Both the position numbers and the translations under genes were made by a program. Source: Qipengyuania spongiae (GTDB taxonomy: Bacteria; Pseudomonadota; Alphaproteobacteria; Sphingomonadales; Sphingomonadaceae). From it: a stretch of DNA of 64,000 bases. The stretch is from positions 134,501 through 198,500 of the forward strand of contig NZ_CP092471.1 of assembly GCF_026168555.1 (NCBI RefSeq), written 5' to 3'. Under the pieces are notes generated by a model. It had not been told where the DNA came from. It made no database searches and worked only from the letters and a program-made list of their open reading frames with translations. Shown in pieces: positions 58,520-64,000 of this stretch; the stretch's first letter is position 1, and every line of letters begins with the position of its first letter.

Positions 58520-59035
58520 ATGCGCAAGATCGTAACCGCCACCGCTGTCGCTGCCATCGCTCTCGGCGTGGGCATGCCGGCCGCGGCTCAGGAAACCAAT
58601 GGACCGACCAACACGACGATCAACAGCACGATGGACGATGACAATGTCATCGTGAACGATCTGCTCGATCTCGTCGCGACCGACAATTCGGCCGATCAGG
58701 ACAATGATGGCAACGGCTCGTATAACGGCAACTCGCTGAGTTTCATCGCTGCCACCCAAACGCTGAGCGCGGTGAACACCAACAGCGAGATGGACGAACT
58801 GGTCGATCTCGACGGTGAGGACGAATCGGATACCCCGGTCGGCTACAACAGCGGCAACAACGTCGTCCGCGACAATGCGTTCGCTGCCTTTGCCGGCATT
58901 AACAACGCTGCGTGGAACACGGGCATCAACGCCAATACGCAAGCGGCGACCAACATCGCGGCTCAAGGCACCGTAAACTTCGGCGTGGGCGGAAGCTCCG
59001 CTGCGGATGGCGGCGCTGGCGGCGGCGAAGACTGA
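58520..59035 (+). CDS. Secreted Asn-rich Fap-like amyloid subunit candidate
   Basis: A 171-residue protein from ATG 58520, with ribosome site aaggaga and a Sec signal ending AAAQ (residue 24). The mature part is rich in Asn, Asp, Ala and Gly. Residues 118-142 carry the pattern DNAxAxFxGxxN then NTGxxxNxQA, shared with the next gene; Asn/Gln-regular motifs of this kind are typical of FapB/FapC functional amyloids. The Gly-rich end (GGAGGGED) is acidic. It is the first gene before a C39 peptidase and a coiled-coil barrel protein, the usual Fap partners. Homology to FapB/C is inferred from context and motif, not from close sequence match. Confidence 0.68.
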   Translation: MRKIVTATAVAAIALGVGMPAAAQETNGPTNTTINSTMDDDNVIVNDLLDLVATDNSADQDNDGNGSYNGNSLSFIAATQTLSAVNTNSEMDELVDLDGEDESDTPVGYNSGNNVVRDNAFAAFAGINNAAWNTGINANTQAATNIAAQGTVNFGVGGSSAADGGAGGGED

Positions 59036-59050
59036 TCCGACCATGCGAGT

Positions 59051-59078
59051 GCAGGGCTCCCCGTCATGGGAGCCCTGC
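59051..59078 (+). promoter_or_regulatory. Intercistronic hairpin after the first amyloid-like gene
   Basis: A perfect eleven-pair stem (GCAGGGCTCCC with GGGAGCCCTGC) closes a six-base loop (cgtcat), 15 bases after the stop of the first secreted protein and 25 bases before the next ATG. There is no T run, so it may be an mRNA stabiliser or leaky terminator that lifts expression of the first gene over the rest of the operon. Confidence 0.7.
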
Positions 59079-59103
59079 TACACTCCTTTCGGAGGCGTTC
59101 GTT

Positions 59104-59535
59104 ATGAAGAAGAAAATTACCTCCACATTCGCATTCGCCGTCTTCGGGCTGGCGATCCTTGGTTCACCCGTCGTCGCGCAGAGTAGCCAAGCGCTGTCGC
59201 CGGATCGAGCAAAAGGCCAGACCGCGCCGTCGACAATCCAGGACGAAGCGAAGACTCCCGACCCAGCATCGCCTGCGGACTCTACCGATCTGCCGGTATT
59301 GCTCGGGGCGACCGAACTCGAGACCGAGCGAGGTCGCGCGACCATCGTTCTTAATCAGCAGGATATCGAGGGCGTCGTATCCGACAACGTTCTCGGCGAT
59401 TATGCGGCCGGAGATATTTCGTTGTCCGACAATGCCCTGGCGAACTTCAGCGGCGTCGGCAATTTTCTCTTCAACACCGGTGCTCAGAACAACCTGCAAG
59501 CGGGGATGACGCTGACCATCACGATAGAGAACTGA
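59104..59535 (+). CDS. Secreted Fap-like protein with degenerate double-glycine-type motif
   Basis: A 143-residue protein with a Sec signal ending VVAQ (about residue 26) and a Ser/Pro/Asp-rich linker (30-60). Residues 62-78 (DLPVLLGATELETERGR) align with the leader of the protein encoded at 60302: Leu at -12, Glu-Leu at -8/-7, Gly at -2, but Arg at -1. Residues 109-133 carry the same DNAxAxFxGxxN/NTGxxxNxQA motif as the previous gene. It is a second subunit or nucleator candidate. ATG 59104 has ggaggc upstream. Confidence 0.65.
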   Translation: MKKKITSTFAFAVFGLAILGSPVVAQSSQALSPDRAKGQTAPSTIQDEAKTPDPASPADSTDLPVLLGATELETERGRATIVLNQQDIEGVVSDNVLGDYAAGDISLSDNALANFSGVGNFLFNTGAQNNLQAGMTLTITIEN

Positions 59536-59538
59536 CCC

Positions 59539-60291
59539 ATGTCGAAACCACCCCGCCGTCGCGTCCTCATCGCAGCCCCCCTCGCGACGGCGCTCCTCGC
59601 CTCCGCTGTTTCGGCATCCGCGCAAGTGCGCCTACAGCACGACAGCGGAGGCACTTTTGACGTGGCGGTCATGAGCTGGTGGGAGATACCCTTCAGGAGT
59701 GTTGTGCGACAGAGATACGATTTCAGTTGCGGATCGGCTGCGATAGCGACGCTGCTTACCTATCACTACGATCGATCGGTTAGCGAGCGCGACGCCTTTA
59801 CCGCTATGTGGCAAGTCGGCGATCGCGACGAAATTCGCAAGCGGGGGTTCTCTCTGCTTGATATGCGATCCTACCTCATTTCGCTCGGTTACGAAGCAGA
59901 GGGCTTCCGTCTTACCGTCGATCAGCTTGCCAAGGTCAGGAGACCGCTGATCGCGCTCATCGACCTTCACGGTTACAAGCATTTCGTGGTCATTAAGGGC
60001 ATGCGCGGCGATCGCGTGCTTACCGGGGATCCTACGTTGGGATTGACGGAATATGCGGCCGACGATTTCGCCAAGCATTGGGAAGGCGTCGCTCTCGCGG
60101 TCATGAGGACTCCGGACCGCGTCCTGCCGACCTACAACCTTTCCGGTGACTGGGGCCCATGGTCCCGCGCGCCAATCGAGCAGGGTGGAGCTTTGCGCGT
60201 CGCGTCCAGTGACCTCACCAATGATTTGCCGCCGGACTACCAGATCACACCCGAGATGCTGATCCCCGTTCGCATCGGCACGGTGGAGTAG
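59539..60291 (+). CDS. Periplasmic C39-family cysteine peptidase (FapD-like)
   Basis: A 250-residue protein with a Sec signal (hydrophobic residues 9-25, ending SASA) and no ABC transporter or membrane domain. The C39 catalytic set is visible: oxyanion Gln58 and Cys64 in RQRYDFSCGSAAIATLL, His148 in HGYKHFVVIKG, Asp164 in LTGDPTLG. Free-standing exported C39 peptidases are the FapD type, needed for amyloid export in Pseudomonas Fap systems. It lies three bases after the preceding secreted protein gene and ten bases before a protein with a canonical double-glycine leader, a natural substrate. Confidence 0.85.
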   Translation: MSKPPRRRVLIAAPLATALLASAVSASAQVRLQHDSGGTFDVAVMSWWEIPFRSVVRQRYDFSCGSAAIATLLTYHYDRSVSERDAFTAMWQVGDRDEIRKRGFSLLDMRSYLISLGYEAEGFRLTVDQLAKVRRPLIALIDLHGYKHFVVIKGMRGDRVLTGDPTLGLTEYAADDFAKHWEGVALAVMRTPDRVLPTYNLSGDWGPWSRAPIEQGGALRVASSDLTNDLPPDYQITPEMLIPVRIGTVE

Positions 60292-60301
60292 GAGACACGC
60301 T

Positions 60302-60874
60302 GTGAAACGGACTTTCGAATGCTCTTTGTTGGCTACGGTCTTGATCTTGGCGAGCACACCAGATCCTCTTCATGCACAGAGCGACGATCTCCCCCAAATC
60401 CTGACCGAGAGCGAGCTAGCGGAAGCGCGAGGGGGTTTCGTGGTTGCGGGTATGGAAATTCGGCTCGGCGCCGATCTGCGCACCTACCTCAACGGCGAAC
60501 TCGCCTTGCGAACGACCATCAGTTGGGAAGACGATGGTCCCAAAACGGACCAATGGGTCTCGGCCACGCTCGCGCCCGCATCGGCCCTGGCGATCGGAGG
60601 CATCCTGGCGAACGGGAACCTCGCGCTGAACGTGAACGGCCAGCCGATGTTTCTGGCGAACGAGGGGCAGACGGCGCTCCTCCAACGGACTGATGGCCAA
60701 ATCCAGAATGTGGCGTTCAACACCGCGAGCGGGATCGATCTACGGCAGGAAGCCGACATCTCTCTGGCCGTGGCGAACTATCAGATGTTTCGCGATGCGA
60801 TGGCGCCGGCAATTCTCATGTCGGGGCTCGGAGATGCCATTTCGCACGCCGCAATCGGGGCGACAGCTCCCTGA
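60302..60874 (+). CDS. Secreted protein with Sec signal followed by canonical double-glycine leader
   Basis: A 190-residue protein starting at GTG 60302 (recorded as Met). The Sec signal ends about LHAQ (residue 26). The following segment LPQILTESELAEARGG fits the double-glycine leader rule: Leu34 (-12), Thr35 (-11), Glu38-Leu39 (-8/-7), Gly44-Gly45 (-2/-1), although -4 is Ala. The rest is rich in Leu, Asn and Gly with beta-like alternation (LNGELALRTTISWE, NGNLALNVNGQPMFLANEGQ). A substrate of the adjacent C39 peptidase is the obvious inference. It may be a FapE/FapC-like minor subunit. It converges with the barrel gene, five bases apart. Confidence 0.68.
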   Translation: MKRTFECSLLATVLILASTPDPLHAQSDDLPQILTESELAEARGGFVVAGMEIRLGADLRTYLNGELALRTTISWEDDGPKTDQWVSATLAPASALAIGGILANGNLALNVNGQPMFLANEGQTALLQRTDGQIQNVAFNTASGIDLRQEADISLAVANYQMFRDAMAPAILMSGLGDAISHAAIGATAP

Positions 60875-60879
60875 TCTTC

Positions 60880-62169
60880 TCAAAACGTGATCGGAAAGCG
60901 GAGGGTAACGCCGAGATCGGGAGCATCTTCGGTCACTCCAAATTCGAACGATGCGTTCGCCGTAACCCGTTCCGTCAGGCGATAGGACATGCCGAAGGTC
61001 AATGATCCGACCTGAAGGCGATCGGACCGCTCCACAGCACCGCCGATTTCGGTTTCCGTGGGCATGATGTAATTGTGCCGATAGCCGAGAGAGAAGGAGA
61101 ACCGCGGATTGAGTGCAAATCCGAACCCCAGCGATCCACTGATGGAATCGCCGGGATCGACATGACCGATGGGAGCCCCACCGACCACCCGATCGATGTC
61201 CCGACCGATGTTATAAAGGTAGCTGACTCCACCGAAGATCACGACAGGATCGGAAGGCAGCAGCATGCTGATGCTGGGCTGAATGCCCCAGAATCCTGAG
61301 CCTGTCGTAAGTCCGGTTGCGACGCCGAACTCGTCGTAGCCGATATCGAACGGGCCTTTTCCGGTATCGCTTTTGACCCGCAAGCCACCCACCCAGATCG
61401 GACGCTGGCCACGCTGATGGTTCAATTGATATCGAACGGAAAATTCGGCATCGCCCACACCGCTCTCGGACAAGTTGATTTCGCGCACGATGCCCTGTTC
61501 ACGTTGCTGGGCGACCGAGATGCGATCGTTGCGATAAAGCAGCGGCACGCGTGCCTCGATCTCCAGGCGCGAGCTGAGACCATACCGCACCGCAATCGTT
61601 TCGATCAAAGTATCCCGGCGGGCACGGCTGGCCTCGATCAGACCGATCTGGATGCCCGGGACGAGTTCGAACCCCCGGAACACCAAGCGATCGTTTGCGG
61701 AGTTTACATACTGAAAGCTTGGCTCGATTACCAATAGACCTGGCCGCGAAAGAACGCCTTGCTCCTGAGGGACTGCGGCGACCGCCGGACGTTGCGAGAT
61801 TTCTTCGGGCGGTGCTTCACCCACCGGTTGGACGGGAGGTGTATCCTGAGAAGCTGGCACCGATTCCGGAGTTACCGCCTGCGCTGCGATCGCGACGCCT
61901 CGGCCGCGCAAGGTCACCAGATCGTCGCTTGCTAGCAAGTTGGGATCTGTCGCGATCAGCGTTCGCAACCTGGTCAGTTCGGCTTCCTGCTGCGCCAGTC
62001 TCTCATCCTGCTCGTCCAGGCGTTGTGCCTGTTGCTGGATCAGGATGCGCAGCTGGTCCAGTTCCTGACTTGTCTCCTGCGCGAAAGCCGGCGTGCCGAC
62101 GACGATGCAGGTGATGGCGCCGCTTGACAGCAATGCAAGCCGCGCAAAGTTGCGGTGTTTCCTCATCAT
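60880..62169 (-). CDS. Outer-membrane barrel with N-terminal coiled coil (FapF-like exporter)
   Basis: A 429-residue protein. After a signal peptide (ending AFAQ) comes a coiled coil (residues about 34-72: LDQLRILIQQQAQRLDEQDE), then a Pro/Gln/Glu-rich linker (about 95-140), then a beta-barrel of about 290 residues ending in Phe (LRFPITF), the usual outer-membrane insertion signal. This order - coiled-coil plug, linker, roughly 12-strand barrel - is that of FapF, the trimeric amyloid exporter. Assignment rests on architecture and neighbourhood. It is 19 bases downstream of a Crp/Fnr gene. Confidence 0.75.
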   Translation of the reverse strand: MMRKHRNFARLALLSSGAITCIVVGTPAFAQETSQELDQLRILIQQQAQRLDEQDERLAQQEAELTRLRTLIATDPNLLASDDLVTLRGRGVAIAAQAVTPESVPASQDTPPVQPVGEAPPEEISQRPAVAAVPQEQGVLSRPGLLVIEPSFQYVNSANDRLVFRGFELVPGIQIGLIEASRARRDTLIETIAVRYGLSSRLEIEARVPLLYRNDRISVAQQREQGIVREINLSESGVGDAEFSVRYQLNHQRGQRPIWVGGLRVKSDTGKGPFDIGYDEFGVATGLTTGSGFWGIQPSISMLLPSDPVVIFGGVSYLYNIGRDIDRVVGGAPIGHVDPGDSISGSLGFGFALNPRFSFSLGYRHNYIMPTETEIGGAVERSDRLQVGSLTFGMSYRLTERVTANASFEFGVTEDAPDLGVTLRFPITF

Positions 62170-62188: not shown

Positions 62189-62830
62189 TCAGGCGACGAG
62201 CTGTTCGTGATCTGGAGTCGGTTCGTATTCGACCAATTGCTCCAGTCTCGCTCGATCGCTGATTCGGATCAGATCGGGTCTTTCGAGTTGGAAATATCCT
62301 CGTCGGGCGAGGTCGCAGATCGACCGGCTTACGGTGTGCATGGTAAGGCCTAAATGGTCCGCCAAGTCCTGCCGCGACATCGGCAGGTGAAGCGTCTCGG
62401 TGTGCCCATCATAGCGCGAGAAGTTCAGCAGGAACGCCGCAACGCGATCGGATGCGTGGGTGTAGCTGAACAGACGGATCGTGCCTTCGACAGCTTCCAT
62501 CGCTCGGCGCAACGCGGGATGGGGTGTGTTGATATGGATAGGCGAGGTCGTGTCATCGAAGGCCACCTCAAAGGTGTGCCTCTTCAGACGAACATCGGTG
62601 AGCGCTTCGGCGGAGAATTGTCGCAGGCCAATGCCGAACCCGAAAGCATCGCCCGGGCCGACGAAGCGGGAAACCTGTCGGCGGCCGTCGCCGAAATAGT
62701 GGCAGAGGGCGATGAAGCCATCGGTGACTTCATACCACCCGTCCCTGGTGTCCCCCTGTCGATAGGCGGACTGGCCTTTGGAAAGGTCGAAAACGTTGAT
62801 CGGGAAATTCGGTGCTTCTCTCGAAATCAT
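62189..62830 (-). CDS. Crp/Fnr-family transcriptional regulator (FixK-like, no Fe-S cysteines)
   Basis: A 213-residue protein from ATG 62830. An N-terminal cyclic-nucleotide-binding-type fold (YRQGDTRDGWYEVTDGFIAL, VSRFVGPGDAFGFGIG) is followed by the Crp/Fnr helix-turn-helix (MSRQDLADHLGLTMHTVSRS at about 145-175). The Fnr N-terminal cysteine cluster is lacking, as in FixK proteins. It is upstream of, and likely co-transcribed with, the FapF-like gene, and divergent from fixJ, which often activates fixK-type genes. Confidence 0.85.
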   Translation of the reverse strand: MISREAPNFPINVFDLSKGQSAYRQGDTRDGWYEVTDGFIALCHYFGDGRRQVSRFVGPGDAFGFGIGLRQFSAEALTDVRLKRHTFEVAFDDTTSPIHINTPHPALRRAMEAVEGTIRLFSYTHASDRVAAFLLNFSRYDGHTETLHLPMSRQDLADHLGLTMHTVSRSICDLARRGYFQLERPDLIRISDRARLEQLVEYEPTPDHEQLVA

Positions 62831-63114
62831 GCTTGTCTCCAGTCTGATGACGGCGACTCGGTTCGTTCTTCGGGAAAGGGTAGAAGCCTGACAAAGCAGG
62901 AACATCCGTATATGTCCGAATGCCTGCATCGGCCCCGACATGATTGAGATCGGGGATGCGATAGAGTATAGCTCACGGCGCAAGTGAGAGAGATTTGCGC
63001 TTTTGTGAATTCGCAAACGGGCCGAAGGTTTTCCGGTCTATAAGGATTCGAGGATTTCCGCGGAACCGGGCAGCGTCTGAAAAGAACCGGCGGTCGTCTC
63101 CAGTGGGGGGCATC

Positions 63115-63738
63115 ATGGAAAGAGCATCCGTCGAGCGCTCGGGCGCCGTCATTCAACTGGTCGATGATGATCATGCGGTCAGGCGGTCGCAGGCCGTCTT
63201 GCTGCGATCTCTCGGCTACAAAGTGCAGACATGGGTCGACGGGGAGAGCTTTCTTCGGGCTGCTCCATCATTGGGGCCGTCCTGCCTACTCCTCGATCTT
63301 GCGATGCCGAGAGTGGATGGCCTCAAGGTCCAGGCGGAGATGCAGTCTCGCGGCATCCATTGGCCGATCATCTTCCTTTCCGGCACCGCCGACATCCCCC
63401 ACGCCGTAGAAGCCGTGAAGCGCGGGGCGTTGCAATTTCTCGTCAAACCAACTCCGACCGACGAACTTTCGGCGGCTCTGGATGTCGCGCTCGAACATCT
63501 TTCAACGTCGGCCACAAGGCCGAACGGAGAAGCCGCCAAGACGAGGCTTGCTCGCCTTACGAAGCGCGAAAACGATGTTTTGCAGGGCCTGGTTGAAGGC
63601 CTGCCCAACAAAACGATTGCTTACGATCTGGGAATCAGCCCGCGAACGATCGAGGCGCATCGAGCGAACATCATGAAAAAGCTGGAGGCGCCGACATTCG
63701 CGCATGCACTCAAAACCGTCTTCGAGGCTCATCAATGA
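63115..63738 (+). CDS. fixJ: FixJ-family response regulator
   Basis: A 207-residue protein from ATG 63115 (longer upstream frames are not family-like). Receiver domain with Asp61 (LLLDLAMPRVDGLK) and Lys111 (FLVKPTPTDEL), then a LuxR-type helix-turn-helix (LTKRENDVLQGLVEGLPNKT, SPRTIEAHRANIMKKLEAP). It is paired by a four-base ATGA overlap with a FixL-type kinase. In rhizobia FixJ activates fixK; here the divergent Crp/Fnr gene next to the barrel gene is the likely target. Confidence 0.9.
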   Translation: MERASVERSGAVIQLVDDDHAVRRSQAVLLRSLGYKVQTWVDGESFLRAAPSLGPSCLLLDLAMPRVDGLKVQAEMQSRGIHWPIIFLSGTADIPHAVEAVKRGALQFLVKPTPTDELSAALDVALEHLSTSATRPNGEAAKTRLARLTKRENDVLQGLVEGLPNKTIAYDLGISPRTIEAHRANIMKKLEAPTFAHALKTVFEAHQ

Positions 63739-64000
63739 ATTTCGCAGCGGAAAGGAACACCCGCAAGCTCCTGGCTTCCAGCGAAGCGCAGTTGCGATCG
63801 ATCCTTGCGACATCTCCTAGCGCGATGGTGGTCATCGACGAATGGGGAGTAATTTGCGCGTTCAGCGCTGCGGCGGAAACGATGTTCGGGTTCCGAGCGA
63901 ATGAAGTTCTCGGTCGGAACGTTAACGTCCTCATGCCGCAGCCGAATTCGACCTCGCACGACGGATATATTCGAAACTATCTTACCAGTGGCGAGCCACA
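63735..64000 (+). CDS. fixL: FixL-type PAS heme sensor kinase (3' truncated by window edge)
   Basis: The first 88 residues of a larger protein. A helical N-terminus leads into a PAS domain (RSILATSPSAMVVIDEWGVI, FSAAAETMFGFRANEVLGRN, VNVLMPQPNSTSHDGYI). His75 in HDGYI matches the proximal heme ligand of FixL (His200 in Bradyrhizobium FixL), so it should bind heme and sense oxygen. The distal-pocket Arg206 position appears to be Asn81, with Arg80 beside it. The kinase domain lies outside the window. Coupled to fixJ by ATGA. Confidence 0.85.
   Translation, partial: MNFAAERNTRKLLASSEAQLRSILATSPSAMVVIDEWGVICAFSAAAETMFGFRANEVLGRNVNVLMPQPNSTSHDGYIRNYLTSGEP

Follow-up and report, generated by a model that had tools for sequence, protein, structure and literature searches.

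Does a compact cluster of five genes in the alphaproteobacterium Qipengyuania spongiae encode a Fap-type secretion system for functional amyloid, and which of its secreted proteins would then be the substrate of its protease? The cluster lies at positions 58520–62169 of a 64,000-nucleotide stretch of the genome (contig NZ_CP092471.1, 134,501 to 198,500), in full termed the window, for which a sequence-only reading had proposed two secreted Asn-rich proteins, an exported C39 peptidase, a further secreted protein and an outer-membrane barrel. All five open reading frames (ORFs) were confirmed in place, and the five-gene locus is real. We consider it likely that the locus represents a divergent Fap-type fibre-secretion system, in which a FapD-type protease would cut the leaders of two secreted proteins, E and B, and a third, A, would exit through a FapF-type pore. 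The earlier interpretation is supported in substance; beyond it, the analysis adds a recurring sub-type, a second copy in the same genome and a C39-type leader in two of the secreted proteins.

The protease and the barrel

The C39 protein is encoded at 59539..60291 (plus strand, 250 amino acids) and matched the NCBIfam C39_FapD model with an E-value of 4.8e-44 and 150 bits, short of the curated cut-off of 330, and more weakly the FilB model (7.9e-35) as well as the Pfam C39 family (2.3e-19). A PDB search, which like all NCBIfam and PDB searches of the protease and the barrel used the window proteins alone, retrieved the C39 domains of double-glycine exporters (LahT at 4.6e-7, PCAT1). The residues Q58, C64, H148 and D164 are invariant in 39/39 aligned FapD proteins (alignment A5). 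Together, these comparisons support an intact FapD-type protease, as had been suggested, standing alone and predicted to be exported by its Sec-type N-terminus. For Pseudomonas, FapD is reported to be periplasmic, and an active-site Cys mutant of it to block secretion of FapC (PMC5557850, PMC6173800; all papers are cited here for the portions of their text that were accessible).

The barrel gene (60880..62169, minus strand) encodes a protein of 429 residues with a signal, an N-terminal helix, a linker and a barrel spanning residues 146–424. Its match to the NCBIfam FapF model covers residues 20–429 (5e-40, 138 bits, not reaching the curated cut-off of 700) and is stronger than that to FilC (7e-20). 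Among PDB sequences only FapF structures were found at E ≤ 0.1, the best at 2.5e-31 over residues 142–429. An AlphaFold2 model calculated from an alignment of 42 sequences, canonical FapF among them, yielded a mean predicted local distance difference test (pLDDT) value of 84.9, with a long helix at 29–74, a short helix at 83–90 and the barrel from residue 146. Foldseek with this model returned FapF chains as the top 18 matches (best 1.2e-24), followed by the COG4313 channel 4rl8 (1.8e-14). The alignments behind the model, its fold search and the comparison of FapD with PCAT1 contacts described below include canonical members. These data support a FapF-type pore whose N-terminal domain is helical, and with the FapF-only PDB matches and the helix 29–74 they speak against an unrelated transporter family, which the sequence-only reading had named beforehand as one of two signs against its proposal.

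The helix–barrel linker carries a leader-like motif, LASDDLVTLRGRG (61897..61935, minus strand; leader profile score 4.9), a possible further FapD site. Ahead of the barrel, the pattern [LIVMF]..[LIVMF]RG occurs in 11 and the pattern [LIVMF]...R[GA].G in 18 of the 42 FapF proteins, with at most 4 in any of 500 shuffles for either, and within the barrel part the counts are 2/42 and 0/42, respectively; because the members are related, this enrichment is weaker than it appears. Many FapF proteins lack the motif, for example those of the canonical loci L097 and L099.

Double-glycine-type leaders in two of the secreted proteins

Which protein would the protease cut? The sole Fap protein reported with complete N-terminal processing is FapE, whose N-terminal peptides are missing from mass spectra, and it was the most likely FapD target for the 2017 authors, who also considered FapF and called the target unclear (PMC5557850). 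The target was still undetermined according to a 2018 review (PMC6173800), and in a 2025 review FapE and FapF are what FapD 'is thought to process' (PMC12822426). For the exporter peptidase PCAT1, the substrate consensus reads L(-12)xxxE(-8)L(-7)xxxxG(-2)G(-1); in bound leaders of PCAT1 and LahT the positions -10 to -4 form a helix docking on the peptidase, L-7 and L-12 matter for binding, and the GG specificity of PCAT1 is explained by a narrow cleft (PMC6959990).

The FapE-type secreted protein E (60302..60874, plus strand, GTG start, 190 amino acids) contains the leader LTESELAEARGG (60401..60436, plus strand; positions -12 to -1), an exact match to this consensus with a predicted cut after G45 and F as the next residue. 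Its leader profile score is 29.1, and that of the second-copy E 23.1, while the highest of 109 background proteins from this genome reaches 7.7; the profile was trained without the genome's two loci. Modelled with AlphaFold2 (pLDDT 79, and 73 in the leader blocks), E has a predicted helix at residues 36–42, corresponding to -10 to -4 as in the bound PCAT1 and LahT leaders, and a first strand starting at F46; a fold search with the model gave nothing at E ≤ 0.001. In sequence, E is a marginal match to the NCBIfam FapE model (E 0.04, residues 8–59), and 18 proteins, counting that of the window, came up at E ≤ 0.01 in a search with it. Profiles of the E-type proteins, which span 103–449 amino acids, match canonical FapE only over the leader and the next ~20 residues (~50 positions around the leader; probability 96.4, E 1.1e-9).

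The leader recurs across the 66 rows examined, comprising a scan of genome contigs (40 FapD loci), the two loci of the window's genome and loci from genome searches; 65 are distinct, as L074 equals L112 and is left out where counts run to 63 or 65. In 64 of these rows the product of the next gene after fapD was identified; E was not detected in L043, at a contig end, or in L044. Following a Sec-type signal, it carries the pattern [LVI]-x3-E-L-x3-R-G-[GRK]-[FYL] with variations: 56 of the 64 have the strict form L...RG[GRK][FYLMW], 7 a looser form and L035 has RGGI. Among 159 signal-bearing ORFs of the same loci more than 3.5 kb from fapD, the strict motif occurs once, in a second FapE (L100). 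RG[GRK] is kept in 43/45 FapE-type representatives at 50% identity, and in alignment A4 of the E-type proteins R43 is invariant and L39, G44 and G45 are at least 90% conserved.

Applied with hydrophobic and acidic alternatives, the PCAT1 consensus matched 26/63 E-type and 17/45 B-type proteins and none of 41 A-type, 14 FapB, 14 FapC or 195 background proteins, the last differing in filters and source from the 159 ORFs above. Shuffled sequences gave less than one match per set, and Fisher tests on these counts gave 1e-18 and 2e-14, ignoring relatedness. L034 lay outside the A-type set and L111 outside the FapB and FapC sets. As signal-peptide scoring and gene calling relied on crude scripts, the background counts are approximate; the Sec-type signals of all five proteins of the locus rest on inspection by eye and on such a script. 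By lineage, the consensus matches 26/49 divergent E-type and 0/14 canonical FapE proteins, 10 of which match if R or K replaces the last G. Canonical here denotes L097–L110, that is, the matches to the FapE model plus L109 and L110, chosen for their high FapF scores. The 2017 paper, giving a pattern around GG, denies the Fap proteins a canonical C39 sequence (PMC5557850); the upstream L-12, E-8, L-7 spacing suggests otherwise.

The second leader is found in the short secreted subunit B (59104..59535, plus strand, 143 amino acids). Its leader, LGATELETERGR (59302..59337, plus strand), a predicted FapD site followed by alanine, occupies the same alignment column as other B-type leaders and scores 6.8, exceeded by one of the 109 background proteins. 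B-type proteins are present in 45/66 FapD rows; 22 of the 45 score above the background maximum and 37 above its 95% level. The corresponding counts are 0/42 and 1/42 for A-type proteins, the window's A scoring at background level, 0/15 and 2/15 for canonical FapB and 0/15 for FapC at both levels. From sequence, the leaders probably mark both E and B for cutting by the system's FapD.

A (58520..59035, plus strand, 171 amino acids) is the candidate fibre subunit, a secreted Asn/Asp-rich protein without the leader motif. Its mature part contains 15% N, 11% D and 1% K+R; most A-type proteins have a high content of N, D and S and little K/R, and B shares the module at their C-terminus. This C-terminal module (NAFAAFAG...NTG...Q; 58850..58990, plus strand, approximate limits set by eye) is common to A, B and the second locus, and between A and B it gave a profile-profile probability of 94.3 and an E-value of 1.9e-8 in a single comparison. 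The earlier description of two Asn-rich proteins with a shared motif holds for the module and for A; B is Asn-rich to a mild degree only. Neither protein matches a Pfam or NCBIfam family at E ≤ 1, and no canonical FapB/FapC repeat is detectable in them; the sequence-only reading had already remarked that the subunits do not resemble Pseudomonas FapB/FapC in sequence. Homology of the module to the Fap repeats was considered and rejected: the consensuses are alike (NAFxxx[SA]G, with the next G nine residues on), but the profile tests fail, leaving a resemblance only. The repeat test run in reverse gave 2/28, compared with 0/140 for shuffles; all targets but L111 were kept. No FapA-named family was found among seven ORFs scanned with Pfam and NCBIfam, no dedicated FapA search of the genome having been made; FapA is often missing in known Fap systems according to a literature survey. 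Since neither FapA nor FapB/FapC repeats were detected and the repeat kinship is unsupported, we call the locus Fap-like rather than a canonical operon, which agrees with its earlier designation as possibly a divergent or undescribed variant.

Leader-like stretches were also seen in other proteins. FapA of the canonical loci L097, L099 and L104 shows, in the middle of the protein, a stretch roughly resembling a leader, most clearly in L099 (LGDADFARVSGG); FapA is reported as unprocessed in mass spectrometry data (PMC5557850). Small extra secreted proteins beside fap genes (L100 8001–8327 and 12269–12703; L102 1410–1754) have similar leaders (DLASIRGRFA, DLERVVGRYV, NLQKVTGRGI) and then share an LWDE stretch. 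Covariation of FapD with the -1 residue was examined as well; the split between G and R/K falls on one deep branch, with L019 and L111 as exceptions, and as it reflects one or two events it provides no test.

Recurrence and gene neighbourhood

The same genome holds a second locus (L003, 2854–7956; C1 at about 2.373–2.378 Mb), with all genes on one strand in the order long DNS-repeat protein, B-type protein, FapD, E-type protein and FapF. Its 568-residue DNS/GNDNS-repeat protein is the likely main subunit there. In 397 Sphingomonadales genomes, FapF (E ≤ 1e-15) was detected in 56 and FapD (E ≤ 1e-20) in 57; compared by eye, the lists share all 56 genomes, with FapD alone only in G020. The E-type alignment finds 38/397 genomes, all among the 56, with G258 and G278 marginal. 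In L013, fapD and fapF are ~6 kb apart. In the relatives examined, within Sphingomonadales and beyond, the C39 gene stands beside secreted proteins of this kind; the sequence-only reading had named a consistent lack of such neighbours as the other sign against its proposal. The system is present in 2/22 listed genomes of the window's own genus and so looks patchy.

In a FapD tree of 59 rows (without L008, L010, L011, L012, L043 and L074), canonical FapD, including four loci from the window's own family, is separate from the window's divergent lineage, whose members come from Sphingomonadales, Caulobacteraceae, Rhodospirillales, Lysobacter, Ectothiorhodospiraceae and a Nitrospirota bin. The fapD and barrel genes were both found in 62 distinct loci, 29 of which have the barrel gene on the opposite strand; in 19 of the 29, a Crp/Fnr gene immediately precedes the barrel gene, at a distance of no more than about 40 nucleotides (manual count). 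Fifteen of the 19 are in the tree and fall within one 18-row clade of Sphingomonadales and Brevundimonas (support 100/97); the other four are omitted near-copies. The Crp/Fnr-linked opposite-strand barrel is a recurring sub-type. According to a 2018 review, neighbouring fapD and fapF homologs are found in five further phyla (PMC6173800), and a 2013 survey, to the extent of its accessible text, restricted Fap to Beta-, Gamma- and Deltaproteobacteria.

Several variants of the gene cluster were observed in passing. Canonical-type fap genes occur in the window's own family despite the 2013 survey (L105, L106, L109, L110, L045–L063), with FapF above 320 bits in 19 loci. A secreted protein of ~200 residues, outside the fapABCDEF set, is encoded between fapE and fapF in sphingomonad canonical-type operons (L105 5940–6542, L109 4852–5442, L110 5266–5880). 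A minimal locus in G020 (L137 4670–6578) combines a 111-residue secreted protein containing LDDVQLDALTAG with a FapD-like protease and, judged by eye, a coiled-coil outer-membrane-type protein missed by the FapF model. Two tandem fap clusters, each with its own FapD and FapE and with one FapF detected between them in total, lie in L100 (the first 13 kb of G481 contig 78).

In the window, the regulator joined to the barrel gene is a FixK-like Crp/Fnr protein (62189..63016, minus strand; Pfam match, NCBIfam FixK 8.2e-26). Its stop lies 19 nucleotides upstream of the barrel gene start, bearing out the linkage noted earlier, and the two genes are probably co-transcribed. Divergent to it, at 62995..63738 (plus strand), lies a gene for a FixJ-like response regulator (NCBIfam FixJ 2.8e-53), whose occurrence in the loci of relatives is inconsistent and whose membership in the system is unproven. 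Over 62189–64000 and L136 1–1484, the FixK-like regulator adjoins the FixJ-like protein, a sensor kinase, whose PAS and kinase parts were assigned by eye, and another response regulator. The barrel gene may be under oxygen or redox control. The FixK-type box TTGAT-N4-ATCAA was considered and rejected: it occurs 18 times in the window against 13.1 expected, and 14 of 100 shuffles reach as many. Neither A nor the barrel gene had a listed box upstream, and the closest one (62259) falls inside the Crp/Fnr gene. The GC content of the locus is 59.8%, compared with 63.7% for the window; as 3 of 19 sampled 20-kb genome stretches are equally low (59.3–60.4%), this is no proof of transfer.

Mechanism, rival explanations and known systems

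In the proposed mechanism, Sec would export all five proteins, each of which has a Sec-type N-terminus. FapD would then recognise the E and B leaders (L-12, E-8, L-7, then RGG or RGR) as bacteriocin C39 domains do and cut after the double-glycine position, releasing mature E and B. These may license or nucleate the passage of the Asn/Asp-rich A through FapF, A would assemble into surface fibres, and the FixK-like regulator may couple pore production to a physiological signal. A more tentative extension, which we regard as possible but doubtful, is that one periplasmic double-glycine protease matures three partner classes, the FapE-type and B-type proteins at their leaders and FapF at the linker between coiled coil and pore. 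If so, cutting by this protease would both license the cargo and open or reset the pore, and bacteriocin-style leader processing would have been transferred to the periplasm, away from the cytoplasmic side of an ABC exporter, and would there run an amyloid exporter.

A number of observations weigh against the proposed mechanism. The leader of the window's B fits the consensus except for R at -1, its counterpart in the second locus scores -0.4 and is exceeded by five of the 109 background proteins, and B-type leaders are often degenerate, 28/45 failing the PCAT1 consensus. A fully relaxed pattern matches 60 E, 31 B, 0 A, 3 FapB and 1 FapC proteins together with 38/195 background proteins, where 29 were expected, and is therefore not specific. 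Canonical FapE has R or K at -1 in 14/14 cases, so that, given the narrow cleft of PCAT1, the cut bond may differ there, and the reported FapE peptides are absent over the first ~70 residues, beyond the motif end near 40 (PMC5557850). In FapD, one of the two hydrophobic leader-contact positions of PCAT1 is basic in the alignment, as judged by eye. The barrel gene of G301 is ~81 kb from fapD, and none of 87 A/B proteins matched the canonical Fap repeats at E ≤ 0.01. Finally, we infer both leader cleavage and amyloid formation.

Could the leader-like motif instead serve for docking or targeting, to FapD as a chaperone or to the FapF coiled coil, and stay uncut at the double glycine, with the essential cut of FapD elsewhere, such as in the FapF linker? 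The linker motifs in 11 or 18 of 42 FapF proteins, in a region also suspected by others (PMC5557850), the R or K that canonical FapE has at -1, and the catalysis-free action known for some C39-like domains (PMC5557850) would suit this explanation. We nevertheless find it unlikely, as docking alone sits poorly with catalytic residues invariant in 39/39 proteins, with the need for catalysis in Pseudomonas and with FapE being the Fap protein reported as N-terminally processed (both PMC5557850); furthermore, the motif ends in GG in most divergent loci, and many FapF proteins, those of L097 and L099 among them, have no such linker motif.

The two remaining explanations would take the locus out of the Fap family altogether. 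Double-glycine leaders with C39 peptidases are a hallmark of bacteriocin systems (PMC6959990), raising the prospect of a bacteriocin or contact-killing export locus whose precursors are cut and freed as antibacterial peptides. This is very improbable, as the C39 protein stands alone with a Sec-type N-terminus, no ABC exporter was seen among the seven genes scanned, Sec-type signals precede the leaders of E and B, the pore is FapF-like and the E-type proteins are 103–449 residues long. We give still less credence to the barrel being an uptake channel of the COG4313 or phenol-degradation type with unrelated secreted proteins as neighbours. The Pfam PF13557 match (2.3e-5) and the position of 4rl8 as the next structural match point in this direction, whereas FapF leads both by sequence, with no COG4313 protein at E ≤ 0.1, and by structure, and the long helical N-terminus and co-occurrence with FapD argue against it.

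That FapD cuts FapE is not a new idea, since FapE was already favoured (PMC5557850, PMC12822426); also known are the NCBIfam FapD and FapF models and the fapD/fapF homologs in further phyla. As far as our literature searches show, the leader site and its relation to double-glycine leaders, the leader-bearing B and the Crp/Fnr-linked opposite-strand sub-type are new; the FapE leader site was not found in print in these searches, which took in the text of PMC5557850, PMC6173800, PMC12822426 and PMC3792158 and had subscription papers, most preprints and supplementary figures outside their scope. The conserved FapE leader names a likely cut site and residues to mutate for a protease that is needed for Fap secretion in Pseudomonas, and the short B subunits offer a second candidate class of FapD substrates. 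Amyloid secretion would thereby be tied to the world of double-glycine proteases, and the Crp/Fnr-linked sub-type recurs in Alphaproteobacteria, a class outside the range given in the accessible text of the 2013 survey.

Compared with known systems, the locus is closest to Pseudomonas Fap (FapA–F), with which it shares an exported FapD-type C39 protease, a FapF-type barrel with a helical N-terminal domain, the kind of N-terminal leader seen in FapE (here in the FapE-type E), N-rich subunits that are secreted and the gene order subunits–D–E. It differs in that no FapA was detected, FapB/FapC repeats are undetectable and a short leader-bearing B takes the place of canonical FapC. In addition, the -1 residue of the E leader is G instead of R/K, and the genes do not form a single co-directional operon, the barrel being on the minus strand behind the Crp/Fnr gene, although the second locus is co-directional. 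The Fil 'putative pilus' of Acinetobacter has a C39 protease (FilB) and an outer-membrane protein (FilC) of the same superfamilies; the FapD and FapF models fit better, no other Fil component was matched, and the FilB and FilC matches are far below their curated cut-offs, as are those to Fap. With the PCAT/AMS exporters (PCAT1, LahT, ComA), the system shares the C39 domain, its catalytic residues, the leader consensus L-12, E-8, L-7, G-2, G-1 and the helix at -10 to -4, predicted here and reported there. In contrast to these exporters, the window's peptidase is a free protein, presumably located in the periplasm, no ABC transporter was seen, and the substrates would cross by Sec first, with FapF as the presumed exit.

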